Assembly: GCA_001464315.1 (NCBI GenBank)
Contig: LNFK01000010.1
Location: forward strand, 1-53,038
Direction: 5' to 3'
DNA: 53,038 nt
Origin: Sphingomonadales bacterium Ga0077559
GTDB taxonomy: Bacteria; Pseudomonadota; Alphaproteobacteria; Sphingomonadales; Sphingomonadaceae
In this document: positions 22,430 through 49,684 of the stretch, one piece after another
Layout of the letters: the number at the start of each line of letters is the position of its first letter
Position numbering within the stretch: the first letter of the stretch is position 1
Made by a program: the position numbers and the translations under genes
Notes under the pieces: model-generated
Databases searched by the model: none
Told to the model about the DNA's origin: nothing
Seen by the model: the letters and a program-made list of their open reading frames with translations, nothing else

Positions 22430-22738
22430 TTATGTCGGGAAGCCGGTTGTGACAAGGGTCACGTTCTTATCAAAGAAATTAGAGAAAATTACACTTCCAA
22501 AAAGTGGTCGGGGAGACAGGATTGCGGCTTCTTTCACAAATTTTTGTAATGAATTGAGAAGCTTAAAGACCGTTTTCGCGGTTACCTGCACCATTACCAG
22601 CAGTCGCTTTAGCGCATTTTGTACACGGCTTGTCGTGCTTCCAACTTCTCGGGCAATTTCACCGTGTTCCAGCCCGTCCCGAACATAACAAATGCATCGC
22701 AATTTGCAATCTCTTGATAGAAATGCTGTGCCATGCAA
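22430..22738 (-). CDS. Short LuxR-type helix-turn-helix protein whose C-terminus runs across attL
   Basis: The 102-residue frame contains a degenerate LuxR-family DNA-binding domain at about 7-60 (LSRDCKLRCICYVRDGLEHG, EIAREVGSTTSRVQNALKRL). From about residue 72 onward the codons fall in and beyond the tRNA-like att repeat (22505-22523). The last ~30 residues are therefore probably not original; the gene may be a truncated element gene fused to flanking DNA. It has no receiver or ligand domain. It is real as a domain, but functional status is doubtful. Confidence 0.5.
   Translation of the reverse strand: MHGTAFLSRDCKLRCICYVRDGLEHGEIAREVGSTTSRVQNALKRLLVMVQVTAKTVFKLLNSLQKFVKEAAILSPRPLFGSVIFSNFFDKNVTLVTTGFPT
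22505..22523 (-). repeat. Left attachment-site candidate (tRNA 3'-end fragment)
   Basis: The 19 bases TGGTCGGGGAGACAGGATT are, read on the minus strand, AATCCTGTCTCCCCGACCA. That is the 3' half of a T-arm, an acceptor strand, a discriminator A and CCA, as in tRNA-Pro. No tRNA body follows on either side. A copy with one mismatch occurs at 49666-49684 in the same orientation, beside an integrase. Interpreted as the far-end (attL) remnant of site-specific integration at a tRNA 3' end. Confidence 0.65.
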
Positions 22739-23027
22739 CTTTGGTGCCGCAACGTCAGCGAAGTTCTGCGTTTATAGTTGCCAAATCCTGAAGCTTGTTC
22801 ATCGGCTGAATGTAGGTCAGCTATCTGGAAATCGTCACCTAAAGCGGACGTTCTGGATACGACAACTTTTCCGACGTTCGCATGGAAAGCTGAAGCCACT
22901 AAAAGCCGACATGACATACAATTCGGATTTCTGTCACGAATCCAGTTCTGTTGCTTAACCTAAATTTCGTTTTTTGATCGTATACTCTGAGCCGAATGTA
23001 AATTCGACAGTTTCAGGAAGAAAAAAC

Positions 23028-24671
23028 ATGAACGAAAACAGTAAAGCTTTATCAGGCCTTTTAAAAAGTCTACTGATATGTCTTATACTGTTCACATTAT
23101 TCGGTATTTTTGAAGCAATTGCGCTTACAAAAATAAGGCTCTTGGTTTATTCCAAAAACTTATTGCAAATTTCGTTGCCTCTGACTTTTGTAATTGCTCT
23201 TACTGTTTTTTTTGAACGAGGTCGATTCAAAAAAGTTCATAACTCGGTAGATTTAACCACTTCGCCAATGGATGGCTTAGTTGATATTTGGCAACGCCAA
23301 GCTGAAGAAAGTGACAATCGACGTAAGGATGCATTCAAAGCACATAGCAACAGATTGGTGCCTCCGATTACCGACGTAGGCAAAGCGGATGTGAATGTAG
23401 CGTCAAATTCGGAGTTGGCGATACGGCACATTTTCCCGCCACTGCGACCTCAAGCTAGCCTCAGCTTTTTGGGAGGATCGCCCATCATCCCAGAAGATGG
23501 CAGTTTCGATTGGCCGATGGTGCACAACCGTGAAGGCATTCTTGAATGGCTAAACTTCATGGCGCAGATTGATTGTTCCCAAATTCCGGCGGGTCCAGCA
23601 CGTCATTTGCTGCCGGATAGTGGCTACATCTACTTCTTCGCGCCCATGTCGCTGAACTTTGGCGAAGATGCGCACCATTTTGTTGCTCGATATCTGCCGG
23701 GACCAATAAGCAAGAATTGGAGACCATGCCCAATTCCACATTCTTCCAAAATCTATGACAATTCAGAGCAAGGTAATTTGTTGCGCGGGTCGGAAGACAG
23801 TTATCCCCGCGTCGAGATCGATCTGGCTTGGCTAGAGGAACCGACCGATGCAGAGGTAGAGACGAGAAAAGACGAAGGACTGCCATATCAGGTCGCAGAG
23901 AAAATCCGAGCCGAGCGCAAAGCGTCATTTTTTGGCCCAAAGAAGGATGGCGTGCTTTATGATGGGAGTGATTCAAGTTGGCTGCTTGATGAAGACTTTC
24001 CTACAAACAAAGCAATGGCGCGGACACTGCGCGACCGAATGGAGCGTCATTGGCTTGAGCAACAGGAAAGTGCTCGTGGCCAGCTGGATTCGCTCGAAGG
24101 AACGTCCGAGAATGACCCCGCGTTTATATCGATGTTAACGCAAAAAGATGCGCTGGCCTTATACAAAGAACAGATACATAAAGCGTTTGATGGACTTGAT
24201 TGGAACGCAAGCAACGCCCTTCCTGGGCTCTCTAATGATGAAAAAGAGCGTGCGAAAGCATTTCTGAGTGAGCTCCTGAATACTGGTTTGCCCTGGGCCA
24301 GCGGAAGTCAGCGCAAAGGCGGTCAAGATAGGCAAATAATTCATAGATGGATGGCCCATGCAGCAATCATTGGCGCGCGAGCCGCGTTAGCAAATGGGCC
24401 TGGCCCTGATGTTGCTTCTATTCCACCTCCGATCATCGATGCATTGGCAGCGCGGCACGATGCTAGAGAGCATCGGCTGTTCGGTAATCCCACTATCATA
24501 CAAGATTTGGACGATATGCCGGAACGCTACATCTTGCTGCTCAAACTCGGCAATGACCGCGAAATGGATTGGCTGGTCGGCGAAATGGGGCCTTTGCAAT
24601 ATTGGATTACGCCAGAGGATTTGGCTGCGCGCCGTTTCGAGAATACGGTGCTAACCATCGAGGCCCACTAG
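23028..24671 (+). CDS. Membrane-anchored DUF1963 (YwqG-like) protein
   Basis: A 547-residue protein starting with two hydrophobic segments (about 10-33 and 38-62), then a cytoplasmic body. The body has DUF1963 features: LSFLGGSPIIPEDGSFDWP, GYIYFFAP, VEIDLAWLEEPTD and the C-terminal MDWLVGEMGPLQYWITPEDLAARRF. DUF1963 proteins are uncharacterised and common near polymorphic toxins and on islands. The ATG at 23028 has AGGAAG eight bases upstream; an upstream frame extension to 22974 is not needed. Base composition is visibly more AT-rich than the core genes to the left, in line with transfer. It stands alone on the plus strand. Confidence 0.8.
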   Translation: MNENSKALSGLLKSLLICLILFTLFGIFEAIALTKIRLLVYSKNLLQISLPLTFVIALTVFFERGRFKKVHNSVDLTTSPMDGLVDIWQRQAEESDNRRKDAFKAHSNRLVPPITDVGKADVNVASNSELAIRHIFPPLRPQASLSFLGGSPIIPEDGSFDWPMVHNREGILEWLNFMAQIDCSQIPAGPARHLLPDSGYIYFFAPMSLNFGEDAHHFVARYLPGPISKNWRPCPIPHSSKIYDNSEQGNLLRGSEDSYPRVEIDLAWLEEPTDAEVETRKDEGLPYQVAEKIRAERKASFFGPKKDGVLYDGSDSSWLLDEDFPTNKAMARTLRDRMERHWLEQQESARGQLDSLEGTSENDPAFISMLTQKDALALYKEQIHKAFDGLDWNASNALPGLSNDEKERAKAFLSELLNTGLPWASGSQRKGGQDRQIIHRWMAHAAIIGARAALANGPGPDVASIPPPIIDALAARHDAREHRLFGNPTIIQDLDDMPERYILLLKLGNDREMDWLVGEMGPLQYWITPEDLAARRFENTVLTIEAH

Positions 24672-24905
24672 CAAGGTTGCCGTTCATCCGCACGCGTTTC
24701 AACGTCCGTTTATGCACCGTAGCCACCGGAAACCGGACAGTCCAGACTCCAAAACATTCCAGCCGTCTGGACATCAATTAAAGACCTTTGTTAGCTGCCG
24801 TTGGTTCATAAGCTGAACGCATGCAAGGTTCCTGAATTCCTGGACCAATACGGAATTTACGAACACTACCCCACAAGTTCGCGGATAGGCACCCGTTTTA
24901 GTTCC

Positions 24906-27812
24906 TTAGAGTTCAAGCCCCCTACCCCGCCCCAAATCCAACCCATGACTAAACGCCAGCTCGCGGCCAAGCGAACGCCCGCTGGTAACGTCGATGCCCA
25001 ATTCGCTCTTGCGGTTAGCAAGGCGCGACTCCAACTGCGGATCGCGCTCTAGGCTCTTCGCCATCCCTGCCATCGAACTTCGCGCGGTCTTGTAAGCACT
25101 CATATCGCCGCGAGCATAGCTCTGCTGGCTCGACACTTCGAGCTGCTGCCAGCGCGTTACAAACCGGTTGGCGCGCTTGGGCAGCGTCTCACGCAGCTCC
25201 TGCTCATTCTTCATGGCCAGGATGGCTCGGCGCACATTGCCGCCCGCCGCTTCATGAGCAAGGGGTTGATCCTCCAGGTATGCCCGCTCGACATCGCGAG
25301 AGTAATTCGCGCCAAACGCGTTCAGTTCGTTGCGGGCAATGTTCAACTCTTTGCCCATCGGTGCATAACGACCGTCCTCAACGAGCTGGTTGATCGTTGT
25401 TCCATCTTCTTGCGCACGCAACAGGTCGCTGACCGCACGAGCATGACGTCTGAACGCGGCCTGCGCCCGAACCTGCCGGTCTGGTTCAGGTGCCCGTGCT
25501 TCGGGCAACCGCAGACCATCGAACAGGCCCCGCACTTTGTCGGGCACTTTGCGAATGACCTCGGCAACGCGTTCGCGGAACGTGATGCCACGCCGCTCGG
25601 CGAACCGCCGCGCCGGATCGGTCGCAGCGTCGCGATCATAGTCCGAAGCCATATCCTTACTGCGCTCTCGCGATAACGTGCGGGCAAGCCTGCCGTCGTC
25701 TGCAAAGTCGTCCCGACCATAATGGATCTGCACAGAGTCGCGGTGACGAGATAGCGCAACATAGCTACTGTGCTGGTCCATGCCGGGCGTCGCCAGCACG
25801 TGCGTCCGATCAACGGTTACCCCCTGCGACTTGTGGATGGTCGCGGCGTAACCGTGGTCGATATTCGCATAGCTCTTGGTGTCAAACGCGACGCTTCTGC
25901 CATCGTCGAGCAGCACCGCCATGCGTTGCGGGTTGACCGATTGCAACGTTCCAAGGCTGCCATTCTTGACCCCAAGCTCGCGCTCGTTGCGCAGGAGCAT
26001 CACCCGGTCGCCGGTGGCAAAGCTGCGCTCACCGCGCTCTACCTGCATCACAACGTCATTGCCAAGCTCGCCACTAGCACGCAAACGTTCGCGCGCAGCC
26101 AGATTGAGCTCACGTACTTCGTCGTTGGTATGGGTAAGCATGATGCGGCTATCGCCCGGCTTTGCGATGCGCTCGCGATCCCAGCTGTCGATAAGTTCGC
26201 TACGCGCCGCTTCGCGCGTATCGGCAGCATGCACCATGTCATGCTCGCGAAAAGCTTCAAGTGCTTCAGCAGTCCTGCCGGTCGCCAGATGCCGCGTTGC
26301 ATCGCGCTGCCAGTCGTCGTGCTGCCGCCTGATCTCGGTAATTTCCACGCTGCCGTGCTGTTCAGCAATCGAACGGAACGCTGCGCCTGCTTCGATGGCC
26401 TGCAACTGCTGTGGATCGCCGACCAAAACGACTTTCGCACCTGCGTCGCGGGCATGCGAGAGGACGCGCTCCATCTGGCGCGTCCCGACCATACCCGCTT
26501 CGTCGATGACCAGCACATCGCGCGAGGTCAGTAGATCGCGGCCTTGCTCCCAGCCATGTTCCATGCTCGCGATTGTGCGCGATGGGATGGATGATCCTGC
26601 CTCAAGATTTTCAGCGGCGATGCCGGACAGCGCAGCACCGCGAACTTCATATCCTGCCGCTTCCCACGCCTCGCGCGCAACGCCAAGCATTGCGGATTTG
26701 CCGGTCCCCGCATAGCCCACGACCACGCCAAGGTCGTTTCCAGACGTGGCATGATCGAACGCGGCGCGCTGCTCACCCGAAAGCGTCAGCTCGCGCGCTT
26801 CGGCTGATGCAAGAGCGCGCTCTTTCCCGCGCTCGCTGACCCTGTGCAGTTCCCGTTCCGAGAGTGAGGTCAAAGCGCGTTCCAATCGCGCCTCGACCTC
26901 GATCATGTCGCGCGACGTGAAGCGTTCGTTTCCGCGCCCGTCATGGCCCAACGCAACAAGATTAGGCGAAGACTGCACTGCGCTCAACGCCAGATCGAAC
27001 TGCTCCTTGCCGTCGCTGTGCCGATGCACGAACATGGCAATGTCGCGGTGCGTGAACGTGGATTGCTGCTTGGTGATGGAATCCAATGCAATATCCGGGT
27101 TGGCGATGACCCGTTCGCCATTCTCGCGTGCGATGGCGTGATGCTCGATCAGCCGGTCTGCATCCGGTCCTATGCGCTGTGCAGCAGCGCCGATCTTGCT
27201 CTGCGGCTCCAGACCGATGCCTTGCGCTTCTAATGACCGGTGGTCGACACGCGCGTCTATGTCCAGCTCGGCAAGGCGATCGTTTACATGATCGGCCCAG
27301 CGTTCGCGCCATTGGCAAACCAGCTCGCTTTTATTCCAGTCGCGGACCTTTGCGCCAAAGCCGTCTTCGTTCACCTCGCGCATCGTAAGCATCACGTGTG
27401 CGTGGGGTTTGGCCAGACCATCTGCGCCGATATCCCAGTGGACATTGAGATCGGCGATCATGCCCTTGTCCACGAACTCATCCTGCACAAAGTCGCGGGC
27501 AAGCTCGATGCCCTGTTGCTGGCTCAACTCACGCGGAATGGCGAACTCGACCTCGCGGCTAAGCTGCGCATCCTTGCGGAGTTCGGTTGCTTCGACCTCG
27601 TTCCACAGGATCGAACGGTCTCCCAGCCGTTCGGGTGCACCGTCTGGCAACATCACCTCGGAATGCACGACCCCTGCCTTGTTGGTGAAGTCGTGCGAGC
27701 GGTCGAGGCGCTGGTCGTGCAGCCGCGAGGCGGAGCGGTAGGCAGCCGAGGCAACCGCGCTCGATCCGACGCTGCGGGAAATGACTTTGGCCGAGAAGTG
27801 ATAGATCGCCAT
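24906..27812 (-). CDS. traA: Ti-type conjugative relaxase-helicase TraA (MobQ family)
   Basis: Nicks oriT, stays bound to the 5' end and unwinds the transferred strand. The N-terminal MobA/MobL relaxase has a catalytic Tyr25 (AAYRSASR) and the HUH metal site His125 (VHWDIG) with His137/His139 (KPHAHVM). From about residue 340 a RecD/TraI-like helicase follows, with Walker A GYAGTGKSAM, Walker B VIDEAGMVG, VGDPQQLQ and the late HGYAATIHKSQG motif. The C-terminal ~200 residues are helical. At 968 residues it is slightly shorter than Ti-plasmid TraA. It is divergent from traC/traD with the oriT-like sequence between, the same arrangement as in Ti plasmids. Confidence 0.93.
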   Translation of the reverse strand: MAIYHFSAKVISRSVGSSAVASAAYRSASRLHDQRLDRSHDFTNKAGVVHSEVMLPDGAPERLGDRSILWNEVEATELRKDAQLSREVEFAIPRELSQQQGIELARDFVQDEFVDKGMIADLNVHWDIGADGLAKPHAHVMLTMREVNEDGFGAKVRDWNKSELVCQWRERWADHVNDRLAELDIDARVDHRSLEAQGIGLEPQSKIGAAAQRIGPDADRLIEHHAIARENGERVIANPDIALDSITKQQSTFTHRDIAMFVHRHSDGKEQFDLALSAVQSSPNLVALGHDGRGNERFTSRDMIEVEARLERALTSLSERELHRVSERGKERALASAEARELTLSGEQRAAFDHATSGNDLGVVVGYAGTGKSAMLGVAREAWEAAGYEVRGAALSGIAAENLEAGSSIPSRTIASMEHGWEQGRDLLTSRDVLVIDEAGMVGTRQMERVLSHARDAGAKVVLVGDPQQLQAIEAGAAFRSIAEQHGSVEITEIRRQHDDWQRDATRHLATGRTAEALEAFREHDMVHAADTREAARSELIDSWDRERIAKPGDSRIMLTHTNDEVRELNLAARERLRASGELGNDVVMQVERGERSFATGDRVMLLRNERELGVKNGSLGTLQSVNPQRMAVLLDDGRSVAFDTKSYANIDHGYAATIHKSQGVTVDRTHVLATPGMDQHSSYVALSRHRDSVQIHYGRDDFADDGRLARTLSRERSKDMASDYDRDAATDPARRFAERRGITFRERVAEVIRKVPDKVRGLFDGLRLPEARAPEPDRQVRAQAAFRRHARAVSDLLRAQEDGTTINQLVEDGRYAPMGKELNIARNELNAFGANYSRDVERAYLEDQPLAHEAAGGNVRRAILAMKNEQELRETLPKRANRFVTRWQQLEVSSQQSYARGDMSAYKTARSSMAGMAKSLERDPQLESRLANRKSELGIDVTSGRSLGRELAFSHGLDLGRGRGLEL

Positions 27813-27841: not shown

Positions 27842-27870
27842 ACGTCGGCACGACGTATAAGCGCGCCCTC
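27842..27870. other. Candidate origin of transfer (oriT) nick region
   Basis: A hairpin (ACGTCG-GCA-CGACGT, 27842-27856) runs directly into TATAAGCGCGCCCTC. From memory, the Ti-plasmid oriT contains CGACGTATAATTGCGCCCTT and RSF1010 has TAAGTGCGCCCTC at its nick site. The match CGACGTATAA-(2)-GCGCCCT and the location between divergent traA and traC make this a strong oriT candidate for the neighbouring relaxase. The exact nick position is not proven. Confidence 0.65.
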
Positions 27871-27983
27871 ACATGATAAAATCCTGTTCGGGACCGGTGC
27901 ATCCCAGCGCGTTCCGGCAACAATGCAGCAATCGCCAAGCGGCTGCATTATAATTTCAACATCACCTCAAGATGGAGACGAAC

Positions 27984-28289
27984 ATGCGCAAACCCCGTGA
28001 TTTTGATGCCGAGCTGAAAGCACTGACCAACAAGGCAGCAATGCTCAAGGCCCGCAAGGTGCAGCAGCTTGGCGAGCTAGTCATTGCGACAAATGCCGAC
28101 AACGTCGATCCCGAGACACTGGCCGGTGCTTTGCTCGACCTTGCCGAAACCAAAGACTCAGCAAAGCGCGAGAAGTGGCGTGCGCGTGGTGCCGGGTTTT
28201 TTCGCGAAGGGTCACGTGGCACGAGCAATCGACATGACGTCAACGCTGCGGGCGATCAGGCAAAACAAGACGGCGGTTCTGCGAGTTGA
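27984..28289 (+). CDS. traC: Conjugal transfer protein TraC-like
   Basis: A 101-residue charged helical protein (start at 27984, preceded by GGAGA at good spacing). The RKPRDFDAELKALTNKAAML pattern, followed by VQQLGELVIATNAD and ETLAGALLDLAE, matches the small TraC/TraD-family accessory proteins of sphingomonad mobile elements. These are thought to assist the relaxosome at oriT. Its C-terminal ~35 residues are polar and probably disordered. The next small gene, traD, begins 38 bases after its stop. Confidence 0.78.
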   Translation: MRKPRDFDAELKALTNKAAMLKARKVQQLGELVIATNADNVDPETLAGALLDLAETKDSAKREKWRARGAGFFREGSRGTSNRHDVNAAGDQAKQDGGSAS

Positions 28290-28326: not shown

Positions 28327-28563
28327 ATGCACCGCCGGGAACGCACACGCCATCTGATCGAGCTGGGTGGCCTCGTACAGAAGGCTGGACTGGTCGAGCT
28401 AACCGATGATGACAGGCAAGTGTTGCTCGGCGCGTTCCTTGCTATTGCGGCAAAGCTGCAAGGCGAAGATCGCGAACAGGCGCTGGGGATATGGAAGCGA
28501 AAAGGGAAACGAGCGTTCGAGGCAGAGCGCAATTCCGAAGCGAATTCCGGCTTGGCTCTTTAA
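28327..28563 (+). CDS. traD: Conjugal transfer protein TraD-like
   Basis: A 78-residue protein with the TraD family core RRERTRHLIELGGLVQKAGL and LLGAFLAIAAKL, a relaxosome accessory. The frame is open upstream (an ATG at 28234 would overlap traC), but the family normally begins just before RxERTRHLIELGG, so 28327 is preferred. Its stop overlaps the stop of the convergent Nmad2-like gene by four bases. Confidence 0.75.
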   Translation: MHRRERTRHLIELGGLVQKAGLVELTDDDRQVLLGAFLAIAAKLQGEDREQALGIWKRKGKRAFEAERNSEANSGLAL

Positions 28564-29132
28564 CAGCTACGCGGCTTTTTGGGAACGCCATCGCGCGGCG
28601 GATAATGAACACCGGACGGCGCAAGACTCTCCAACCAATTTTGAAGTGCAGCGGCATCGCCTTCCTGCACTCCGCTAACGCGGTGGCCTCTCCCACCCGC
28701 TGCAAGATGCATAAGCTGTTCAGAGATCATTTGCGGTTCTTTGCCAAAATACCATGTAGCGCGAGGATTAAAGATCAGAACGGGCGCGCTAGTATCCTTG
28801 CTGAATTCCTTAGGGCCGGGATGGTAGTCGGGGCGCAGACGCTCAAATCCGCCGTCCGCAAGCTCCCGATAAATAGCATCCGCCCGTCCACCACGCCGCT
28901 TAAAACTATGCCGCTGTTCATATTCACCCACTCCGATGCTCTCGGCGATTTGTCCTGCCCAAACCACAAGGCCACGCGGAGCTGGGCTTGGCCGGAATCC
29001 TACCACCCAATCGCCGGGTTTCGCACTGGCACGGATTTGTGGTTTGCACGTTGCCAGCGATACCAGCCCGTTGTCGATGCAGGGCGCCATTCCGCTGTCG
29101 TGCTGCAATATGTATCGCAATATTCTGGTCAT
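28560..29132 (-). CDS. Nmad2-type nucleotide-modification-associated protein
   Basis: A 190-residue protein beginning MTRILRYILQHDSGMAPC, then LVSLATCKPQIRASAKPGDW and VVGFRPSPAPRGLVVWAGQI. This is the pattern of Nmad2 (nucleotide modification associated domain 2), which was predicted from gene neighbourhoods to act on modified DNA bases; its chemistry is unknown. The ATG at 29132 overlaps the stop of the upstream Nmad3-like gene (ATGA), so the longer frame to 29189 is rejected. The fixed pairing with Nmad3 suggests one complex or consecutive steps. No catalytic residues are established. Confidence 0.75.
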   Translation of the reverse strand: MTRILRYILQHDSGMAPCIDNGLVSLATCKPQIRASAKPGDWVVGFRPSPAPRGLVVWAGQIAESIGVGEYEQRHSFKRRGGRADAIYRELADGGFERLRPDYHPGPKEFSKDTSAPVLIFNPRATWYFGKEPQMISEQLMHLAAGGRGHRVSGVQEGDAAALQNWLESLAPSGVHYPPRDGVPKKPRSC

Positions 29133-29845
29133 GATCGGATTATCCGGATTGTCTGGTTCAGCCACTCGATGGCTGACGGAATCTCGCAAATGTCAGCGAC
29201 AAATTCCTGACCTCTTGCAACGATTTCAAGTCTGTCATCTCCCAACCAGCGCTCGGGCTTGCCGTGAAAGGAAAGGCCGACCTGCTTGAGCCAGTCAGGC
29301 ACGATCCAATGCCGCAGAGGTCCACTTGCTTGCGTCAAGCGCAACTGATCATGATCCCGGCTCGCCACTTCGCCAGCACCCTTGTAAATGGTGTTGTTGT
29401 CGTTCCATTCTCCAAGCGTATGCGGATGTGGGCGCGGCAATGAGCCAAGGTCGCCATCGGCAGGCGAAATCATTTCGTCAATTTGAAGATAACCGAAAAT
29501 GCGGTGGTGACGTTGACCTGTGCGCTCATCGGTGAACAGACCAAAAAACAGAAAAACGTCACCAATGCCGACGCCTTGGTTTCGCAGGTGCGATTGGGCT
29601 GCACCGGACTGACCGAATAGGCATTGGTCACCTATAAACATTGGGTCTTCGTGGCAAAGATGATCCCGCGCAATCTTCCCCCGCGTCACTTGCTCGACGA
29701 TTTCGCCTAATCCGAGATGGTCGTAAGTAGTAACCGAACGGCGACGAGTGGGAATAGGAAGACTGACCGGCCTCCCGCCGATTATCGGCGAAGCAGTTCC
29801 ACCAGAACCAGTGTCGAACCCTTTACGACTGAATATTATTCGCAC
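29129..29845 (-). CDS. Nmad3-type nucleotide-modification-associated protein
   Basis: A 238-residue protein starting with a GTG codon, then RIIFSRKGFDTGSGGTASP and GGRPVSLPIPT. Further on come GDVFLFFGLF, RIFGYLQIDE and WIVPDWL. This matches the Nmad3 family (nucleotide modification associated domain 3), a predicted partner of DNA-modification systems. The GTG at 29845 is preferred because GGAGGA lies just upstream and the family normally starts at RIIFSRKGFD; the frame is open to 29866. It is translationally coupled to the Nmad2-like gene. Molecular function is not known. Confidence 0.78.
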   Translation of the reverse strand: MRIIFSRKGFDTGSGGTASPIIGGRPVSLPIPTRRRSVTTYDHLGLGEIVEQVTRGKIARDHLCHEDPMFIGDQCLFGQSGAAQSHLRNQGVGIGDVFLFFGLFTDERTGQRHHRIFGYLQIDEMISPADGDLGSLPRPHPHTLGEWNDNNTIYKGAGEVASRDHDQLRLTQASGPLRHWIVPDWLKQVGLSFHGKPERWLGDDRLEIVARGQEFVADICEIPSAIEWLNQTIRIIRS

Positions 29846-30115
29846 CGTTTCCTCCGCGTCCGTCACCTTACGCCATGTATAACAACAGATACCATCTGGC
29901 CAGTTAAGGGAGCCGTATTTCCTAAAGCCGCACCATGATGTTCGTCCAGTTTGATCAATACAAAGTTTGCTAAGTCAGGCTTGCCGTTTTTCACTTTCAA
30001 TAGGCCTTGGCGTTCGCTGCTTTTCGAACCGACAATGCGATTTCCTGTCCATTGCAATCAAAGTTCATCGCGAGGACCGCGAAGAGGCGGCGACCGATGG
30101 CCGCCGCCCGCTGAA

Positions 30116-30451
30116 TCAGCCGCGCTCTTCGTCGGTCGGCTTGCCGTTCGCCTTGGCGAGAATGGCTAAACCATCGGCGAGCAAGTCCACCGTGTAACGG
30201 GTCTGACCATCGGCTTCGTAGTTCGACTGCCGCACGCGACCTGTCACGCGGACAAGATCGCCGGTATCGGCCTTCGCGAGGCGGTCGCGGATTTTGCCGA
30301 AAAGCGTGACGCGGTTCCAATGAGTGTCGGTCTTCCATTCGTCGCCGTCGCGGCGGTTGTAATTGGCGGCAACCGAAACGTGGGTGACATCCTTGGCCCG
30401 GTCGATTTTGCCGATCCGTCCGATGATATGAAATTCGGCGATGTTCTGCAT
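30116..30451 (-). CDS. ssb: Single-stranded DNA-binding protein, mobile-element type
   Basis: A 111-residue OB-fold protein: FHIIGRIGKIDRAKDVTHVSVAAN, THWNRVTLFGKI, DLVRVTGRVRQSNYE and YTVDLLADGLAIL. It lacks the acidic C-terminal tail (DDDIPF) that chromosomal SSB uses to recruit partners, as do many plasmid-borne SSBs. The ATG at 30451 has AGGAGA at correct spacing; the upstream frame extension is unsupported. It probably protects transferred single strands during conjugation. A 249-bp stretch downstream, up to the Nmad3 start, shows no gene. Confidence 0.88.
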   Translation of the reverse strand: MQNIAEFHIIGRIGKIDRAKDVTHVSVAANYNRRDGDEWKTDTHWNRVTLFGKIRDRLAKADTGDLVRVTGRVRQSNYEADGQTRYTVDLLADGLAILAKANGKPTDEERG

Positions 30452-30774
30452 GTGAGTTCTCCTGATTGCGTCAGGCGAAATGTCCTGACGGACATCGAAG
30501 GGCCGCGCGCTGCCCGCGCGCAAGCCAAAAGACGGAGGCTCCATTCATGGAAACCGTAGGCGCAAAGCGCCGGTTTTTTGCTTGCGCGCACAAGGGCGGT
30601 GCTGAGCGGCCAAACGTCCGTCGATCAAGGACATGCCGTTCGCAGTCAGTCGAGCAAGCCATCGACATCGGCTTTTCCCCATACGACTTTTGCAACTCGA
30701 CCGGACTGGGCTACCCTAGCATCTCACATCCTGACGCTGATTGACATTGTAGGCATATTTGACTACATCGACTC
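30452..30774. other. Intergenic stretch with hairpins between ssb and the toxin-antitoxin pair
   Basis: No gene was found in 323 bp. It holds a GTCAGG/CCTGAC hairpin near 30474-30493, a GCGCGC-rich inverted repeat near 30507-30525, and a terminator-like hairpin at 30552-30581 (GGCGC-AAA-GCGCC followed by GGTTTTTT on the plus strand). The terminator-like element has no obvious plus-strand gene to end; on the minus strand it would lie in the ssb leader. The toxin promoter is at the right end. Confidence 0.4.
30741..30769 (+). promoter_or_regulatory. Likely promoter and operator of the toxin-antitoxin pair
   Basis: A perfect -35 hexamer TTGACA (30741-30746) is followed after 17 bases by TACATC as a weak -10. 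An inverted repeat TGTAG-N10-CTACA (30748-30767) overlaps this stretch and would suit autorepression by the encoded antitoxin. The toxin ATG at 30775 is so close that the transcript may have almost no leader. Inferred from pattern and position. Confidence 0.4.
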
Positions 30775-31473: not shown

Positions 31474-32664
31474 ATGGGGCTGGTTAAGTCTTGGATGATC
31501 GAGATGGAGGAGCGCGGCTATGCTGAATCCGACGACCATATCTGCAAAGACTGCGTCGATGATGATGCCTTGGCGGATTGGATCACGAGAAACGCTATTG
31601 AGCCGGAGTGCAGCTTTTGTGGAGCAGAAGCTGACGGTGCAATTGCGGCAAGTTTTGAAGAGTTCACGGCGGTCATACTGACGGGCCTCGGATTCGATTG
31701 GAATGAACCGACCCACGAAGGAATAACGTATATTTCGGCAGAGGGTGGCTGGCAGGCCTCGCTTTCGACGACACATGAAGTGCTCTGGGATGCTGGATTT
31801 ACCGAAAATGAAGATGTTATCGAAGCACTGGTCGATATGATCGACTGCGAGGCTTGGGTCGAGCGTGAGTTCTATCGCGGGACGGACAGTCAGCGGCTCA
31901 CTTGGGGATGGGACAGTTTCAAAGCATTTACGAAGAACCACACACGCTTTTTCTTCCTACAAAGCCAAGAAGAAGACAGCTACGGTGAGGTCACCCCTGC
32001 CGAAATGCTGGGGTCGATTTCGGAAATGATCTTGTCGAAGTTGGCAGACCAAGGACTGCTCAGGATTATCAACCAAGAAACTGACCTTATTCGCATTCGG
32101 GTTGCTGACGAACATAAAAAACTGGCTTCAGAAATCGGGACTCCAAATCCCGAATTCGCTCTCCAATCAAATCGCATGAGTCCGGCGGGCATCCCGATGT
32201 TTTACGGTGCGTTTGACTTTCAGACCGCTCATGCTGAGACGTTCGATCCTGAGGCTCACGAAGGTAAATCATTGTCAGTCGGGACGTTCAGGTCGTTGCG
32301 CGATCTAACAGTGTTGGATTTGGCTAATCTACCGTCAATCCCGAGCGTGTTTGATCAAGAGCGGCACAGAACCATCCATTCGCTGCGTTTCCTGCACCAA
32401 TTTGCAAGAGACATTTCGCAGCCTATCGCCCGAGATGGGCATGAGCATATCGATTATGTCCCGACGCAGATCGTAACGGAGTATTTTCGACGGGTCTTTC
32501 GTCTCAAAGATGGAAACCCAATCGACGGCATCCTCTATCGCAGCGCAAAAAATGCGGATGGGCAAGCCTTCGTGCTATTTTGTGAAAATCACCAATGCGT
32601 CAGCCTAGACGATCAGCCCGTGCGTGACGAAATGGTCCGGCTGATAGCCGTAGCCCACATCTAA
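31474..32664 (+). CDS. HEPN/RES-type protein, likely NAD-targeting toxin
   Basis: A 396-residue protein. The N-terminal part has two CxxC pairs (ICKDC near 23-27 and CSFC near 46-50) like the HEPN/RES N-terminal domain. The C-terminal part has RES features: NRMSPAGIPMFYGAFD, then LVSVGTF-like SLSVGTF and IDGILYRSAKNADG. RES toxins degrade NAD+, with the conserved Arg-Glu-Ser set giving the name. The usual small Xre-like antitoxin is not next to it; the pair just upstream has its own toxin. It starts eight bases after that antitoxin gene, so it may share the promoter. The neighbouring minus-strand gene converges on it. Confidence 0.75.
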   Translation: MGLVKSWMIEMEERGYAESDDHICKDCVDDDALADWITRNAIEPECSFCGAEADGAIAASFEEFTAVILTGLGFDWNEPTHEGITYISAEGGWQASLSTTHEVLWDAGFTENEDVIEALVDMIDCEAWVEREFYRGTDSQRLTWGWDSFKAFTKNHTRFFFLQSQEEDSYGEVTPAEMLGSISEMILSKLADQGLLRIINQETDLIRIRVADEHKKLASEIGTPNPEFALQSNRMSPAGIPMFYGAFDFQTAHAETFDPEAHEGKSLSVGTFRSLRDLTVLDLANLPSIPSVFDQERHRTIHSLRFLHQFARDISQPIARDGHEHIDYVPTQIVTEYFRRVFRLKDGNPIDGILYRSAKNADGQAFVLFCENHQCVSLDDQPVRDEMVRLIAVAHI

Positions 32665-35068: not shown

Positions 35069-35719
35069 CTATTGCTTGCGAACGACAACCGGCTCAAAAT
35101 CAACCGCATCGGAATCATCTCCGGTGCGCAGACGAATGTTCTCCCATTCGCCCTTCTTCACAATGAAAATGCGCTCAATGAAGTCTTTGAAATTTCCGCT
35201 ACTTACGCCCGACGGAAGCGACAATTCTGCACGAACATCATCGCCGACAACCGACACGCAGAAAAACCACATGCCGGTGTTAATCGGCCCGGTCGCAGCG
35301 GAACGAGGTGAAGCAGGCTCGATTTCCTCGGGTTTGAACAGCGAAAGTTGTGCCTCGTCAATGGCGCGTTCAGCGCCTGCACCTTTACCCGAAATCGCCA
35401 TCGGCGATTGATCCGAAGCAGCCAAATCGACGCTCTGGTAGGTGATGGTAAGGTCACGCTCGGGATGCCGGACAAGTTCGATGTTGTCTTTGCGGCAAAG
35501 ACTCCAGCCGCGAGTGCGAAAAAGGGCACGAACATTCCTCGTGCCGTGGATATAGGCGAATTGACCAGCAGCAGAAATGGGGTCATTGTCAACAGCGTCG
35601 GCCCGCGCGCCGACGACCTCTTTGACGATTTGGATGAGCTGATCGCGCGTCACGCCAAAGGTTTCGCTCAGGCGAGCGTCAACCGTCCACTCTTCATTGT
35701 AAATACGCGCCAAACCCAT
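35069..35719 (-). CDS. Unknown protein paired with the XRE-ImmA/IrrE gene
   Basis: A 216-residue protein from the ATG at 35719, which has GAGGGG at good spacing (the open frame runs to 35752). Visible features: GLARIYNEEWTVDARLSETF, VTRDQLIQIVKEVVGARADA, then GPINTGMWFFCVSVVGDD and DFIERIFIVKKGEWENIRLR. No family was recognised. It lies 92 bp downstream of the MmeI-like restriction gene, behind a large palindrome, and directly upstream of the XRE-ImmA/IrrE gene. It may be an effector or substrate of that peptidase. Confidence 0.6.
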   Translation of the reverse strand: MGLARIYNEEWTVDARLSETFGVTRDQLIQIVKEVVGARADAVDNDPISAAGQFAYIHGTRNVRALFRTRGWSLCRKDNIELVRHPERDLTITYQSVDLAASDQSPMAISGKGAGAERAIDEAQLSLFKPEEIEPASPRSAATGPINTGMWFFCVSVVGDDVRAELSLPSGVSSGNFKDFIERIFIVKKGEWENIRLRTGDDSDAVDFEPVVVRKQ

Positions 35720-35731
35720 GCGAACACCCCT

Positions 35732-38800: not shown

Positions 38801-39291
38801 TCGATGCAATGGCCGACATCGGTGACGAGCAGAAACGGCGGCCAACCGTGGTCAATCGGTAATGCCTTGGCATATCGTTCGGCCTGCCCACGCGCCTCAA
38901 CCATCGCTTTCGACCAAGCGGGTGTGCCGCGCTTAGCCGTGCCGCGCTTGAAGCGGGTGGCAGCGGTCTGGCCGAAAATATCGAGATCAGCCTCGCCCTG
39001 TTCTGCGGCCTTGCGGTCGGCATCGCTGCCTTGTTTTGCCTCTAGAACGAAGCAGTGGCGCTTGTAGGCGTCGATTCGCCCAAAACTTTCGGTGCCATCG
39101 GCTTCCGTCTGAAACACGCGGCGTTCGAATACATAATCGTTATACGCGTCGTCGATGCCGCTGCCCTTGGGTGGACCGACGCCGATTAGCGCACACAGGC
39201 CAGTAACAAACAGATGAGTATTGGCGAGTTCGGAACCACCTGTCAGCGCCCATTCGGCAATGAAGGATTCGATTTGAGCGTTATCTGACAC
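35812..39291 (-). CDS. MmeI-like single-chain (type IIL/IIG) restriction-modification enzyme
   Basis: A 1159-residue protein with a GTG start. The N-terminal domain has a PD-(D/E)xK-like nuclease site: Asp74 (GRIDAYK), Glu84 and Lys86 (VLEAKQ). From memory MmeI uses Asp70-Glu80-Lys82, the same spacing. A helical spacer follows, then an N6-adenine methyltransferase with motif I LDPACGTGNFL near 430 and motif IV VGNPPFIGNKRM near 604-615. A target-recognition domain and a C-terminal helical domain complete the usual MmeI-like order. One protein should both methylate one strand and cut DNA at a distance. DISARM methylase DrmMI is related, but no drmA/drmB genes are present. All key motifs are intact. 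Confidence 0.88.
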   Translation of the reverse strand: MSDNAQIESFIAEWALTGGSELANTHLFVTGLCALIGVGPPKGSGIDDAYNDYVFERRVFQTEADGTESFGRIDAYKRHCFVLEAKQGSDADRKAAEQGEADLDIFGQTAATRFKRGTAKRGTPAWSKAMVEARGQAERYAKALPIDHGWPPFLLVTDVGHCIDVYADFSGTGKQYTQFPDAARFRIALNDLRDEEVRIRLATIWTDPLSLDPSKEAARVTREIAGHLAELSKRLEKREQNPTRVADFLMRCLFTMFAEDVQLIPEGSFTDFLTRMQKRPENFAPNLSSLWQAMDKGGLAGVLGGAGETVLRFNGYLFKDTTAIALNADEISLLIEAASHKWNHVEPAIFGTLLERALDGKERAKLGAHYTPRAYVERLVMPTIMEPLRADWAGVQAAAGQLIDAGKAEEAHAVIEKFHAQLAQTKVLDPACGTGNFLYVALARMKELEGEVIGRLAELAPEGEKQTVAELSGHTITPENFLGIEINPRAAAIAQLVLWIGYLQWHFRVNGEGKVPPEPVLRDVKTIENRDALITWDKKVLERDEHGKPLTRWDGETMKLHPVTGKKVPDEDARVEVEHYVAPKAAKWPKTDFIVGNPPFIGNKRMRKRLGDGYVVAVRAAYTAVPANVDLVMYWWEKAAIASRKEKVRRFGLVSTNSIKQITNRVVVNSHKSAKPPLSLAFAIPDHPWRDEETNAAVRVAMTVGDVGTKSGLLRTVVSERRQSDGNAQIEFSDFRGLINADLSVGSDTSVAADLISNRRLSFMGVIPVGMGFRVDPIEQAVLFEELARTPFIRKYLGGSDLTDNIKPSHIIDIGALDEPKLRANYPATYQFLWDEVRPHRLGAERPNHRQFWWRFGESRVDMRIAFAGLPRFIATTETAKFRVFSFLDAEILPDQKLRVVALSDGYDLGVLSSHLHLVWAAATGGRQGVGNDLIYNHTTCFDKFPFPADVTEPLAARIRAEAEALDALRKQVLAAHDDLTLTGLYNVLEALNAGRALTDKERDIHDRGLVTLIRQHHEAIDTAVAEAYGWSADLSDEDILTRLVALNKTRAAEEAKGVIRWLRPDFQSPGATAPQVNATLDLGDAPVTAPAAIISWPKTLAEQVSAVAAILAAAPIPQHPRDIARAIQGTNAKGVTPVLDALAAIGQARKLADGRYAA

Positions 39292-39416: not shown

Positions 39417-39941
39417 TTAATTTAGCTTGGTCGCACTCATACCGGCTACCGCCACTCGACACTGCGCCAATGCGCGCATCATATGATATTCGACGCCTTG
39501 ATTGCTGATGCGAAATTTCTCTGCAATTTCGGTATAAGTCATCTGCCTTAGCCGGTGCATCAGGAAGATGCGTCGTGTTCGCTGCGGCATCTCGCGGAGC
39601 GATTGCCAATAGGCACGACGCAAATCCGCTGCTTCGATCTGCCACGTTTGTTCGGGTGCAACGGGCGCATCGCGCCCGTCGTCGAGGGGGAACATGACGT
39701 TTTGCTCCCGCATCCTTCGTCTCGACCGCTCAACCAGCAAATTTCGGGCCGTCCGAGTGAGATAGGCTGAAGGATTGTCGAGCCTCTCAAACGACCCGCT
39801 GCGAAGTACCCTTGTGAAAGCGTCCTGCACAAGATCGGGGGCAGCGTCCCAGCCAACCCTTTTGCCAAAAAAGCGAAGCAGTCGCCGATTTTCGGTACGA
39901 TAGAATGCATCGAACGATGCGACTTCACAGGGCGCGGTCAT
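39417..39941 (-). CDS. ECF sigma factor, FecI-like
   Basis: A 174-residue extracytoplasmic-function sigma factor. Region 2: FDAFYRTENRRLLRFFGKRV, DLVQDAFTRVL, YLTRTARNLLVER. Region 4: REMPQRTRRIFLMHRLRQ and YTEIAEKFRISNQGVEYHMM. It most resembles FecI-type sigma factors, which normally sit before a FecR anti-sigma gene and a TonB receptor; neither is seen. Instead its start overlaps the stop of a nucleotidyltransferase gene (ATGA), and the restriction gene follows 125 bp downstream on the same strand. Confidence 0.88.
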   Translation of the reverse strand: MTAPCEVASFDAFYRTENRRLLRFFGKRVGWDAAPDLVQDAFTRVLRSGSFERLDNPSAYLTRTARNLLVERSRRRMREQNVMFPLDDGRDAPVAPEQTWQIEAADLRRAYWQSLREMPQRTRRIFLMHRLRQMTYTEIAEKFRISNQGVEYHMMRALAQCRVAVAGMSATKLN

Positions 39942-40651: not shown

Positions 40652-41581
40652 CTAATTTTGTGCTGCGGCCTTTTCGAGTTCGGCGATCTTGTCGGTGCAG
40701 ACCTGATGGACGACGCGGGCCAATTCTTCGACGCGCCCGGCAAGCCAAGTTAACTCGTCCTCACTAATTTTGTAATGCTTCGAGTAGCGCGCTTTCGTAT
40801 AAGCCTCTTTCAGCTTCTGAAACATCGCACGTTCGCGGTGTGCATCTTCAGGCCAGATGCCATAGATGCGGCGATCGAGCCCCTCGGCCAGCGAGCGCAG
40901 GAAAGCGATGTTGTGATTGTACGGTGTGTAGAACGTCAAGGTCAGAAGCAGACCTTGATATAAGCGTTCGGTCGCCTGATGGAGATCGAAAGCCGCAAAT
41001 TTGTGCTGCTTGTCGGCCAAACTGCTGCGCGAACGTTCGAGAGAATACTCTGCCGCTGGCATGTATTCCTCAAAATATTCCTTTGCAGCCGTCAACGCCT
41101 GTGCCGGGGTTTTCGGTTTAGGCGTCGCAAGCTCGCTGTCGTCGACCTCATATAACGCGACGCCGTCCTTCGCGACCTCCATGAAAAAGACCCGGCCATG
41201 CGCCAGCCCATCATTCACCTCATGAAGAGAGTGGACGATGAAATTGACCGGCGTGTGCAGGGTCTTCTCTATGGTATAGGCACGGATCAGTCGTTCCTCT
41301 GCCTTGGCCCAATAGGCGGCACGGTCGGTCAGTTCCTTCTGGCTGACGATTATGAGAATGTCATAATCGGATTTGTACTGGTTTGCGGACAGGGGTGCAT
41401 CGACCCAGTCGCCGCGCGCGTGACTGCCAAACAGGATTATCTTGAGGATGCGCGCGCCCTTGCGGGGGCCGGTCGCATTTTCCGTAGCTCGGCGAAACTC
41501 ATCGAAAATAGCTTCAACAATGCGTTCTAGCTCGCGTTGCTTGCCGATTGGAAGATGATTGAGGTCGTTACGCATCTTCAT
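40652..41581 (-). CDS. Nucleotidyltransferase-HEPN fusion protein
   Basis: A 309-residue protein joining an MNT domain (ILFGSHARGDW near 50-60, KSDYDILII near 70-78) to a HEPN domain (about 165-300: AFDLHQATERLYQGLLLTLT, KAYTKARYSKHYKIS). In separate MNT/HEPN pairs the HEPN part is an RNase toxin and MNT AMPylates it. Here the HEPN lacks a clear RX4-6H motif (ARYSKH has a shorter spacing), so toxicity is doubtful. Its intact MNT motif contrasts with the degenerate paralogue 220 bp downstream. The 219-bp gap between the two shows no gene. Confidence 0.85.
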   Translation of the reverse strand: MKMRNDLNHLPIGKQRELERIVEAIFDEFRRATENATGPRKGARILKIILFGSHARGDWVDAPLSANQYKSDYDILIIVSQKELTDRAAYWAKAEERLIRAYTIEKTLHTPVNFIVHSLHEVNDGLAHGRVFFMEVAKDGVALYEVDDSELATPKPKTPAQALTAAKEYFEEYMPAAEYSLERSRSSLADKQHKFAAFDLHQATERLYQGLLLTLTFYTPYNHNIAFLRSLAEGLDRRIYGIWPEDAHRERAMFQKLKEAYTKARYSKHYKISEDELTWLAGRVEELARVVHQVCTDKIAELEKAAAQN

Positions 41582-45612: not shown

Positions 45613-45669
45613 CCGGCGGCATTTATGTGCCATAGTGGAGGTGTTGCAACACCATTGAAGGAGGCGTCC

Positions 45670-46704
45670 ATGTCACAGGTTATCACAATTGGTCTGGATA
45701 TTGCTAAGAACGTTTTTCACGCACACGGCGTTGATGCGCGCGGTGGAATGGTTTTCAGCCGCAAGCTGACCCGGAGCAAGCTGCTCGACTTTTTTGCGAC
45801 CCATGCTCGATGCGTGGTGGCACTTGAAGCGTGCGGCGGTGCGCATCACTGGGCGCGCGAACTGCAGTCGATGGGTTACGATGTCCGGCTGATCCCGCCG
45901 GCTTACGTCAAGCCGTTCGTCAAGCGTCACAAGAACGATGCGATCGATGCGGAGGCGATCTGCGAGGCAGCACAACGGCCTGGCATGCGCTTTGTTGCAG
46001 TGAAGAGCGAGGAGCAGCAGGCAGCGGGACTTGTGTTCCGCACGCGGGACCTGGTGGTGCGACAACGGACCCAACTCATCAATGCGATCCGCGGCCATCT
46101 CACAGAGTATGGCTGGGTGGCACCGCGCGGGACGGCGCACATGACGATGCTCGCCGATCTCCTCGACGATGAGGAGATGGCCTCGACCCTGCCGGCGGCG
46201 GCGCGACCCATGTTCAAGCTGATGGTCGATCTGCTGGCCGAACTGAACAAGCGAGTCGCCATGCTTGACCGCGAGATTGCGCAGCGTGCGAAGGAGGACG
46301 AGGCGGCACGACGGCTGATGACCATCCCCGGCATTGGGCCCATCGCTGCCACTGCTATCCTCGCGCTCGCCCCGCCGATCGGGACGTTTAACAAGGGGCG
46401 CGACTTTGCGGCCTGGCTCGGTCTTGCGCCTCGCCAGCACTCGACCGGTGGCAAACAGCGGCTTGGCAGTATCTCGAAGATGGGCGAGCGTACGATCAGA
46501 CGGCTGCTCATCATCGGTGGTAGCTCGATGGTGCGTCAGGCCTGTCGCTTTGGTGCGCCCTCCGGTTCGTGGCTTGAGCGGATGCTCGCGCGCAAGCCGC
46601 GCATGCTCGTCTCGGTGGCGCTCGCCAACAAGATGGCGCGGATGGTCTGGGCGTTACTGACCAAGAAAGAGGATTACAGAGCTCCGGCAGCGGTCACGGT
46701 GTAA
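45670..46704 (+). CDS. IS110-family transposase (DEDD recombinase)
   Basis: A 344-residue transposase that uses a RuvC-like DEDD domain plus a C-terminal serine domain. The N-terminal part shows the acidic residues in TIGLDIAKNVF, VVALEACGGAHH and NDAIDAEAICEAA. The C-terminal Tnp20 part begins with IPGIGPIAATAIL and includes WLGLAPRQHSTGGKQ and GGSSMVRQACR with candidate Ser. The ATG at 45670 has GGAGG just upstream. IS110 enzymes work with a structured bridge (seek) RNA encoded in their own noncoding end. Confidence 0.93.
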   Translation: MSQVITIGLDIAKNVFHAHGVDARGGMVFSRKLTRSKLLDFFATHARCVVALEACGGAHHWARELQSMGYDVRLIPPAYVKPFVKRHKNDAIDAEAICEAAQRPGMRFVAVKSEEQQAAGLVFRTRDLVVRQRTQLINAIRGHLTEYGWVAPRGTAHMTMLADLLDDEEMASTLPAAARPMFKLMVDLLAELNKRVAMLDREIAQRAKEDEAARRLMTIPGIGPIAATAILALAPPIGTFNKGRDFAAWLGLAPRQHSTGGKQRLGSISKMGERTIRRLLIIGGSSMVRQACRFGAPSGSWLERMLARKPRMLVSVALANKMARMVWALLTKKEDYRAPAAVTV

Positions 46705-47656: not shown

Positions 47657-48052
47657 GCTCTACGACCGCTTCCAGTTCACTTAATCTAAGAGTTGTATGT
47701 CCGTATCTCGCCCAGGACGAGACACCGTCAGATGCAAACGGCGGAAATGTCCGACTCGGACACTTACCTCGTCCTCTGCCTAATTCTTTAACGCCGTCGA
47801 ACTCGATAAAGATAGTCCAATGTTTAAGGACATGGCGATCGGCTAAGTTGCTTTCCCGCCATTGATCGCCACACACCACGATCTGTAGTCAATCACATTC
47901 TGTTCTACCTGTCCGTTGTCATTCGCCGCCTCTTGCCGCTTTGTATTCGCCTGCGCGCACTTACATCGAAAACGCACTTGCGGAACTAAACGACAGAGCC
48001 AATGCTAGGCTCATGGGGAACCAATGACTGTCAACAAATGGAAGCACGTCCC
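47657..48052. other. Gene-free stretch before alpA
   Basis: About 396 bp without a convincing gene. It has a GTCCGA-CT-CGGAC-type palindrome near 47741 and distant GGCGATC/GATCGCC arms near 47832-47869, neither clearly a terminator. The alpA promoter is presumably in the right part. Confidence 0.3.
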
Positions 48053-48268
48053 ATGTCTAACCTTGAAAGAATCATCCGCCTGAAAACTGTTCTGGATCGC
48101 ACCGGCCTGTCGCGCTCGACTGTCTACCGAAAGATAGCCGAGGGGACGTTCCCGCCGCAATTGCGGATTAGCAGCAATGGTGCTGGCTGGAGCGAGTCCG
48201 AAATCAACAGATGGGTTTCCAATCCCCCAGCCTATCGCCCAGCTTCGATTAATGACTTGCCAGCCTGA
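48053..48268 (+). CDS. AlpA-family transcriptional regulator
   Basis: A 71-residue MerR/AlpA-like DNA-binding protein: IIRLKTVLDRTGLSRSTVYR, KIAEGTFPPQLRIS and GWSESEINRWV. AlpA regulators control excision of P4-type islands. It overlaps the convergent integrase gene by 37 bases, and both belong to the right end of the element. Confidence 0.88.
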   Translation: MSNLERIIRLKTVLDRTGLSRSTVYRKIAEGTFPPQLRISSNGAGWSESEINRWVSNPPAYRPASINDLPA

Positions 48269-49494
48269 CGATCAGCGCCCGCCCCTTCCCTTTCGGCCCG
48301 CTCCAGAAAATCGGCCCACCACTGCATCATGATGCGTCGGTGGGCCAAATATCGTGCCGAGTTGTATGCGGCGCGAACGCCTCGCGCGACATGCGCAAGC
48401 TGCACCTCAATCCAGTCTGGCTCAAACTCACCAGACTCGTTGAGCACCGTGCTAGCGAGGCCCCGGAAGCCGTGGACAGTCGCCTTGCCGCGCAATCCCA
48501 TTCGATAGAGGATGTCTAGCATTCGGTTCTCGCTGATCACGCTGCTTTTGCTGGTGGCGACAGGGAAAAGGAACTTGCCCAGTCGTTCATTACCAGCGGT
48601 GCGAAACACGTTTGCCTCCTCGATCTCTTTGAGGAGCGCTACTGCCTGCCGCGACAACGGAACTAGATGCTCACTGCGCATCTTCATGCGGTCTGGCGTT
48701 ATGCGCCAAAGCGGCTGTCCGCCGTCAAGCCCCTCGATCTCACTCCATGTCGCGAAGCGGGTTTCCTGCGTCCTGACCATTGTGAGCATGGTCCAGCGCA
48801 GCGCCAAGTGGCTCATTAGAGTCCCTTCGTCCTGCGCCAGCTTGGCGAAGAACGCGGGCAGTTCACGCGCATCGACCTTGGCGCGGTGCTTGACGGGTGC
48901 GGGTCGCATCATGGCAGGTGCGATGTCGCGACTGGGATCACTACGGCACCGCTGCGTGGCGATTCCATAGCGAAAGACTTCACCGACGTGATTTCTGATT
49001 CGGTGCGCCATTTCGACAGAGCCACGCTGCTCAATCTTGCGCAATTCGGTCAGCAGCATCACAGGGTCAATGTCAGCAATCGGAACCGACCCAAGCTCGG
49101 GAAAAATATCTTGCTCTAATCGGGTGCGCGTAATCCGCGCGTATCTCTCCGACCAGATGCGCGAGCGGGTATGGAGCCATTCCCGAGCGACAATCTCGAA
49201 TGCGTCCTGCCCTTTTGCCGCCAGTGCCTTCTTCTCGGCCTTCCGTATACTGCTTGGATCGTGGCCTTCCAGCAAATGGCCCTTCGCCTCATCGCGCCAT
49301 TTGCGCGCGTCGGCAAGCTTCACGATGGGATATGGTCCGCCAGAAAGCAGCTTCTGCTTGCCAGCGAACCGATAGGACAGACGCCAATGCTTCTTGCCAT
49401 CTGGATTTACGAGGATGAACAAGCCTCCGCCATCGGCGTGCTTGGTCGGTTTGGGTCCAGCCTTGAGGCTGCGAATGGTGGCGTCGCTCAGCAT
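48232..49494 (-). CDS. P4-type tyrosine integrase (DUF4102 N-terminus)
   Basis: A 420-residue integrase that recombines at tRNA 3' ends. The N-terminal DUF4102 arm-binding domain reads LKAGPKPTKHADGGGLFI. The catalytic domain has Arg in MVRTQETRFATW, HGFRGLAST (His-x-x-Arg), VQLAHV and Tyr in the YNSARYL region. Its start codon lies within a palindrome that probably serves as an operator or arm site. It sits 170 bp from the right tRNA-like att fragment, as expected for its own attachment site. Confidence 0.93.
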   Translation of the reverse strand: MLSDATIRSLKAGPKPTKHADGGGLFILVNPDGKKHWRLSYRFAGKQKLLSGGPYPIVKLADARKWRDEAKGHLLEGHDPSSIRKAEKKALAAKGQDAFEIVAREWLHTRSRIWSERYARITRTRLEQDIFPELGSVPIADIDPVMLLTELRKIEQRGSVEMAHRIRNHVGEVFRYGIATQRCRSDPSRDIAPAMMRPAPVKHRAKVDARELPAFFAKLAQDEGTLMSHLALRWTMLTMVRTQETRFATWSEIEGLDGGQPLWRITPDRMKMRSEHLVPLSRQAVALLKEIEEANVFRTAGNERLGKFLFPVATSKSSVISENRMLDILYRMGLRGKATVHGFRGLASTVLNESGEFEPDWIEVQLAHVARGVRAAYNSARYLAHRRIMMQWWADFLERAEREGAGADRQAGKSLIEAGR

Positions 49495-49555
49495 GTTGGT
49501 AACTTACCACATTCGAGCTTGATAACCAAAAATCTTACCAACATTGTGTTGGTAA
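49494..49555. promoter_or_regulatory. Two palindromes with TGTTGGTAA half-sites at the integrase promoter
   Basis: An imperfect palindrome TGTTGGTAA-C-TTACCACA (49494-49511) overlaps the integrase start codon. A perfect one, TTACCAACA-TTG-TGTTGGTAA, lies at 49535-49555. The same half-site in four copies suggests operators for AlpA or the integrase, or integrase arm sites near the att site at 49666. Confidence 0.55.
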
Positions 49556-49665
49556 TCCGTGGGATTTGCTGAAATCGCTTGAGACGGTGTGACCGTTGTA
49601 ACTATCTCAACTCTAACGTTTTTTCGGACAACATGGGACAAAAAGACACAAGTTGAGAAAGATAA

Positions 49666-49684
49666 TGGTCGGGGTGACAGGATT
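49666..49684 (-). repeat. Right attachment-site candidate (tRNA 3'-end fragment)
   Basis: TGGTCGGGGTGACAGGATT; on the minus strand AATCCTGTCACCCCGACCA, the 3' end of a tRNA-Pro-like gene including CCA. It differs from the left copy (22505) at one base. No tRNA body follows to the right, so another element probably separates it from the intact gene. Confidence 0.65.

Follow-up and report, generated by a model that had tools for sequence, protein, structure and literature searches.

The 53,038-nt window analysed here, contig C10 of Sphingomonadales bacterium Ga0077559, very probably holds part of a tandem array in which two islands accreted at the 3' end of a tRNA-Pro(TGG) gene, element 1 followed by element 2. 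Element 1 measures 27,180 bp from repeat to repeat. The original prediction had described its ends as 19-bp direct repeats at 22505 and 49666, minus-strand copies of a tRNA-Pro 3' end with a single A/T difference; both repeats lie at these positions, differ solely at position 10 and match the end of an intact tRNA-Pro(TGG) gene on another contig of the genome (C11:292-368, minus strand), whose last 19 bp (C11:292-310) form a third copy. A tRNA-Met gene lies close to it (C11:439-515). As had also been proposed, neither window copy continues into a tRNA, ARAGORN and Rfam detecting no tRNA gene in the 53,038 nt, and the intact gene, foreseen beyond the window, is the one on C11. C10 and C11 are separate contigs with no join in the assembly; we infer both their adjacency and the order in which the elements arrived. 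With that proviso, the intact tRNA gene and the element-2 ends found in relatives bear out the tandem arrangement first suggested for this locus.

Pfam confirms the integrase and AlpA genes noted at the right-hand repeat (48235-49494 and 48002-48268), together with the integrase at 49810 (49810-51102) from which a second element had been predicted. The element-1 integrase has arm-binding, central and catalytic domains and occupies the tRNA-proximal end of its element; that of element 2 is tRNA-distal, so that transcription of the two genes diverges from the 49666 repeat that lies between them. Pairwise comparison of the two proteins revealed no meaningful similarity (best E 0.52). The earlier picture is refined in two respects: the integrases are dissimilar and opposite in polarity, and 2.6 kb of additional DNA without an evident origin lies to the left of 22505. 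The features of the locus are collected in the table.

Table. Features of the probable tandem array in the window, in order of position.
Feature	Coordinates	Strand	Remarks
att repeat, chromosome side of element 1 (tRNA-Pro 3' end)	22505..22523	-	exact match to intact tRNA end
DUF1963 protein, cargo	22974..24671	+	
Ti-type TraA relaxase-helicase (MobA/MobL, RecD-like)	24906..27812	-	NCBIfam MobQ fits
oriT-like 27-mer where traA and the traD-like genes diverge	27842..27868	-	conserved sequence upstream of plasmid traA
TraD-like relaxosome protein	27972..28289	+	PF06412
Second TraD-like protein	28327..28563	+	PF06412
Nmad3-domain protein	29129..29866	-	
SSB-like protein	30116..30544	-	below NCBIfam cut-off, above Pfam's
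HEPN/RES-NTD + RES domain protein, toxin-like	31474..32664	+	
RmrA-like antitoxin (HTH + ImmA/IrrE protease), RosmerTA	34017..35066	-	PADLOC
RmrT-like toxin, RosmerTA	35069..35752	-	PADLOC
Type IIG (MmeI-like) restriction-methyltransferase	35812..39291	-	PADLOC
ECF-type sigma factor	39417..39941	-	NCBIfam
Nucleotidyltransferase + HEPN protein	40652..41581	-	nucleotidyltransferase match weak
IS110-family transposase inside island	45625..46704	+	Pfam
AlpA, candidate excision factor of element 1	48002..48268	+	Pfam
Tyrosine integrase, element 1, tRNA-proximal end	48232..49494	-	Pfam
Chimeric att between elements 1 and 2, A/T variant	49666..49684	-	variant base also in G036 element-2 end
Candidate arm-type sites of element 2, CTGCACAG-like, two pairs	49728..49798	+	putative role
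Tyrosine integrase, element 2, tRNA-distal end	49810..51105	+	Pfam
Fic protein (DUF4172 + Fic), element 2 cargo	51410..52540	+	Pfam; PADLOC
SNF2-type helicase, element 2 cargo	52537..53038	+	Pfam; cut by contig end

The twelve best plasmid matches listed for TraA are 62-64% identical to it, ten of them in Sphingobium or Sphingomonas. The oriT-like 27-mer, single-copy in the window, recurs upstream of traA in the four plasmids aligned (4 of the 12 matches listed): identical in one, with a one-base insertion in another, and with an insertion and one substitution in two. Domain searches of 28 element-1 ORFs found no type IV secretion system (T4SS) or coupling-protein (T4CP) domain. With a relaxase but no coupling protein or secretion system in these ORFs, element 1 is best interpreted as an integrative mobilizable element (IME) that encodes its own relaxase. 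By the definition adopted here, as worded in the available part of PMC5704250, an IME integrates by its own means, carries in its canonical class a relaxase and an oriT, and has no mating apparatus of its own; element 1 has an integrase gene, a relaxase with an oriT recognised by sequence conservation alone, and no such apparatus in the 28 ORFs scanned. The mobilizable character originally proposed is supported by the predicted relaxase and TraD-like genes and the oriT-like site, and element 1 would be expected to excise and transfer. Contig C23 of the same genome (7665 bases; L290) bears VirB2/3/4/6/8/10-like genes, a cluster that is a possible helper for it. A prophage was considered and rejected, the element-1 ORFs scanned containing no structural or packaging domain and the PHROGs matches among 10 proteins being the two integrases alone.

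Element 1 might instead be a decayed, immobile island whose repeats record a past integration, a reading that would accommodate the IS110-family transposase inside it, the several ORFs that match no family and the T4CP and T4SS domains not found in the ORFs scanned. We regard it as rather unlikely: the reading frames of integrase, AlpA and relaxase are uninterrupted and span their domain models wholly or for the most part, the element has its oriT-like site, and the two cores differ by just one base.

The cargo of element 1 includes a putative RosmerTA pair, in which the gene for an RmrA-like protein, with its helix-turn-helix and ImmA protease, adjoins that of an RmrT-like toxin. PADLOC returned nothing for 5 of the 10 proteins scanned. 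A nucleotidyltransferase-HEPN gene comparable to that at 40652-41581 stands beside traD/traA on a Sphingomonas sanguinis plasmid (L293 855-1766).

A genome-contig scan for relatives of the element-1 integrase yielded 97 confirmed, 80 of which were kept. In 21 of the 80 a tRNA gene, of one of several kinds, is located no more than about 620 nt 5' to the integrase; the other 59 have none, in a scan that covered tRNA but not tmRNA genes. In two relatives the core is found unchanged within an intact tRNA-Pro(TGG): L077, a Sandarakinorhabdus sp. MAG (integrase 93% identical, 172 nt from the tRNA), and L078, a Novosphingobium sp. MAG (69% identical, 171 nt), compared with 171 nt between core and integrase in the window. 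At the DNA level L077 is 82% identical to element 1 over 1,619 positions; the homology includes the core and stops one base past it, where L077 continues into the intact tRNA-Pro. The best second core match in the L078 genome has two mismatches and is on another contig. The two inner ends of element 1 have no 10-mer in common.

Relatives of element 2 define the other side of the 49666 repeat. Within the order, 9 of 196 genomes, this one among them, have relatives of the element-2 integrase at E ≤ 1e-40. Contig C91 of G036, a genome of the same genus, presents the M28 peptidase gene that lies left of element 1 in the window, 1.7 kb further on a core with the same variant base, and beyond it DNA 97% identical to element 2 over 225 nt, up to the contig end; the 11 kb read beside this left end contained no element-1 match. 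G172, from another genus of the family, has the element-2 left end at 93% identity over 807 positions, with the usual base in its core, again on the peptidase side and about 2.4 kb from the peptidase homologue, and no element-1 match in the 8 kb read. Since G036 has the left end without element 1, 49666 is independently marked as a boundary, and these matches identify it as the tRNA-distal end of element 2. The predicted tRNA-proximal right end is most likely C11:1-291. DNA beside tRNA-Pro on contig C41 of G036 matches C11:200-264 (87% over 67 positions, E 3e-15, tRNA excluded), against a best E of 0.035 for 20 other same-genus tRNA-Pro flanks; C11:1-199 found no match in C41, and the C11 left end is identified by this short match of about 65 nt. 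A CACAG-type repeat pair occurs at both element-2 ends (49729/49740 and C11:216/227), the pair at C11:216-234 matching the candidate arm-type sites.

The position-10 variant base stands at the left end of element 2 in this genome and in G036, and the tRNA copies carry the other base, a distribution that suggests strand exchange within the first nine core bases; G172 is without the variant. Among the integrase relatives, L238 (89%) has a core one further base away from the 49666 copy, and L239-L242 (70-71%) have a different end, resembling the 3' end of another tRNA, which we take to be of the tRNA-Gly type. An inverted repeat, GATTCCAGC/GCTGGAATC, is present at 49681-49703, on the element-2 side, where it overlaps the chimeric core at its end. 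Contig C30 of G028 starts with a match to the last 24 SNF2 helicase residues seen (96%), and the two assemblies may thus be interrupted at almost the same point.

The insertion site was compared across 20 stretches beside tRNA-Pro, each from a different genome of the same genus, out of 36 such genomes searched. An M28 peptidase gene, which in the window ends at 19681, 2.8 kb before the first core, is present in 11 of them. In four (G008, G023, G013 and G009) it lies 275-380 bp from the tRNA-Pro 3' end, so that a nearly empty site does exist among relatives, as expected if the repeats mark an island junction. In seven it is 2.2-11.0 kb away, and it was not found in nine stretches as fetched, three of which end early at contig ends; the site is therefore variable for further reasons as well. 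The bases directly left of 22505 are those of the native tRNA-Pro downstream flank in G021, G018 and G015, which places the chromosome-side junction at 22505; the flanks of many other tRNA-Pro genes in the genus are unlike them. When 196 genomes of the order were searched with the left end of element 1 (22524-22973), its own genome alone matched, with one weak extra match there; the left boundary is accordingly placed by the repeat and by the flank of native type.

The interval from the peptidase gene to the first repeat includes a 2.6-kb block (19875-22504) with DAGK-, metallophosphoesterase- and uracil-DNA-glycosylase (UDG)-like genes (Pfam). Its proteins gave no tblastn match at E ≤ 0.01 in the 20 same-genus stretches, L077 or L078, and its metallophosphoesterase was found at E ≤ 1e-30 in this genome alone (1/61). 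Because the block was not found in the relatives' stretches, the variable region may be wider than its start at 22505 implies, and an older insertion with no recognisable repeat is possible. A further relic tRNA-end copy was sought as its source; none exists in the window at up to 4 mismatches beyond the two known copies, and the 5-mismatch matches at 31781 and 7385 look like chance.

The simplest history has element 1 arriving first and element 2 second, with the 3' end of tRNA-Pro(TGG) as an attB common to both. The element-1 integrase would have inserted its element at the tRNA, placing the integrase gene at the tRNA-proximal end, and the TraA relaxase would nick the oriT-like site for a co-resident type IV secretion system to carry element 1. 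Element 2, with its dissimilar integrase and opposite polarity, would later have entered the restored tRNA end, parting element 1 from the tRNA and leaving the intact gene on its far side and a chimeric repeat at 49666. Given contig adjacency, the locus has what defines tandem accretion: successive elements at one attB, with the intact target at one end.

The block from the peptidase gene to the tRNA could alternatively be one composite island that arrived together rather than by two successive insertions. According to the available text of PMC5704250, whole-composite transfer is conceivable, and CIME-ICE tandems have been observed to transfer. We consider such an arrival improbable, because G036 and G172 carry the element-2 left end on the peptidase side with element 1 unmatched in the 11 and 8 kb read, and because L077 has an element-1 relative directly at the tRNA, without element 2.

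The 19-mer core matches twice in the window at up to 3 mismatches, against a mean of 0.03 expected from 100 shuffles. Rather than being scattered outside tRNA sites, it has three copies at up to 1 mismatch in the whole genome (2,863,465 bases, 78 contigs), namely the window pair and the one that ends the intact tRNA gene; the reversed-pattern control gave 0 copies over the same 2,863,465 bases. A reading of the repeats as coincidence or as ordinary fragments of tRNA genes, with the region not a unit, which the frequency of the core in viral contigs might suggest, is hardly credible given these counts and an integrase-to-tRNA spacing kept in two relatives. In viral contigs the core occurs in 72 stretches at 73 sites, 39 inside ARAGORN-called tRNA-Pro genes and 34 outside. 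At least one copy, allowing 1 mismatch, is present in 41 of 45 same-genus genomes and at least two in 12 of 45; these are not island counts, since the additional copies may in part belong to other tRNA-Pro genes or to contig ends that are repeated.

An 11-kb viral contig, L008, has the same tRNA-Pro end near both of its own ends (216-234 and 10916-10934), and elements other than the two described here may use the tRNA-Pro site. G019 (L194, L281) contains a 53-bp copy of the tRNA-Pro end about 20.4 kb from the intact gene, probably a sign of another island at this site.

The two-step array makes a further outcome conceivable. The two integrases, dissimilar and opposite in polarity, have the same 19-bp tRNA-Pro core in common, so that the outermost repeats could recombine and release the whole array as one circle, with element 2, which shows no relaxase in the part seen, riding on the oriT and relaxase of element 1. 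We put this forward tentatively and think it doubtful; if true, the circle would be a composite with layered phage defences. The locus provides a clean tRNA hot-spot case, two elements with dissimilar integrases stacked at one 19-bp core and relatives that show parts of the array separately, and it supplies a testable relaxase-encoding IME in a Proteobacterium.

The locus itself does not figure in the retrieved portions of the literature searched on tRNA-Pro tandem islands, IME accretion and sphingomonad IMEs, and several known systems resemble it in part. The IMEMl R88B-type IMEs of Mesorhizobium, in the excerpts of PMC8627217 consulted, are integrated elements with a Ti-type traACD locus and divergent genes around oriT, like element 1; as in our reading of element 1, they are mobilized rather than self-transferring, and tRNA sites are common among them. 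They occur in different bacteria, their relaxases are classed as MOBF whereas TraA of element 1 fits NCBIfam MobQ, and their putative RDF gene lies downstream of traA, the candidate in element 1 being AlpA beside the integrase; the same excerpts have the Mesorhizobium tRNA-Pro occupied by an ICE, here by an IME. Closer in host, pPDL2, an integrative mobilizable element of Sphingobium fuliginis, shares with element 1 a sphingomonad background, an integrase and oriT, and integration at a tRNA 3' end, but it is a plasmid that makes use of tRNA-Ser and of a RepB-like protein and, in the sections of PMC3516476 at hand, had no tra genes detected. Tn6031 of Sphingobacterium, compared through its table row in PMC5704250, is an IME with a tyrosine integrase at a tRNA-Pro 3' end, as here, although it is a Bacteroidetes element. 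For the cargo, the passages of PMC10440598 on the RosmerTA (RmrT/RmrA) phage defence describe an ImmA-protease antitoxin adjoining an RmrT-like toxin, as in element 1; the RosmerTA-like pair here is cargo beside a type IIG restriction enzyme and is predicted from its genes. Tandems formed through distantly related integrases of similar specificity are described in the consulted pages of the IME review (PMC5704250). A parallel given there, the IME_Sag2603_tRNAlys tandem of Streptococcus agalactiae, likewise places two elements side by side at one tRNA 3' end, their tyrosine integrases being very different and a chimeric att lying between them; its att sites are very different and its partner is a slightly decayed ICE, whereas the cores here differ by one base. 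The present locus appears to be a well-resolved case of a known arrangement, with element 1 carrying RosmerTA-like and type IIG genes.
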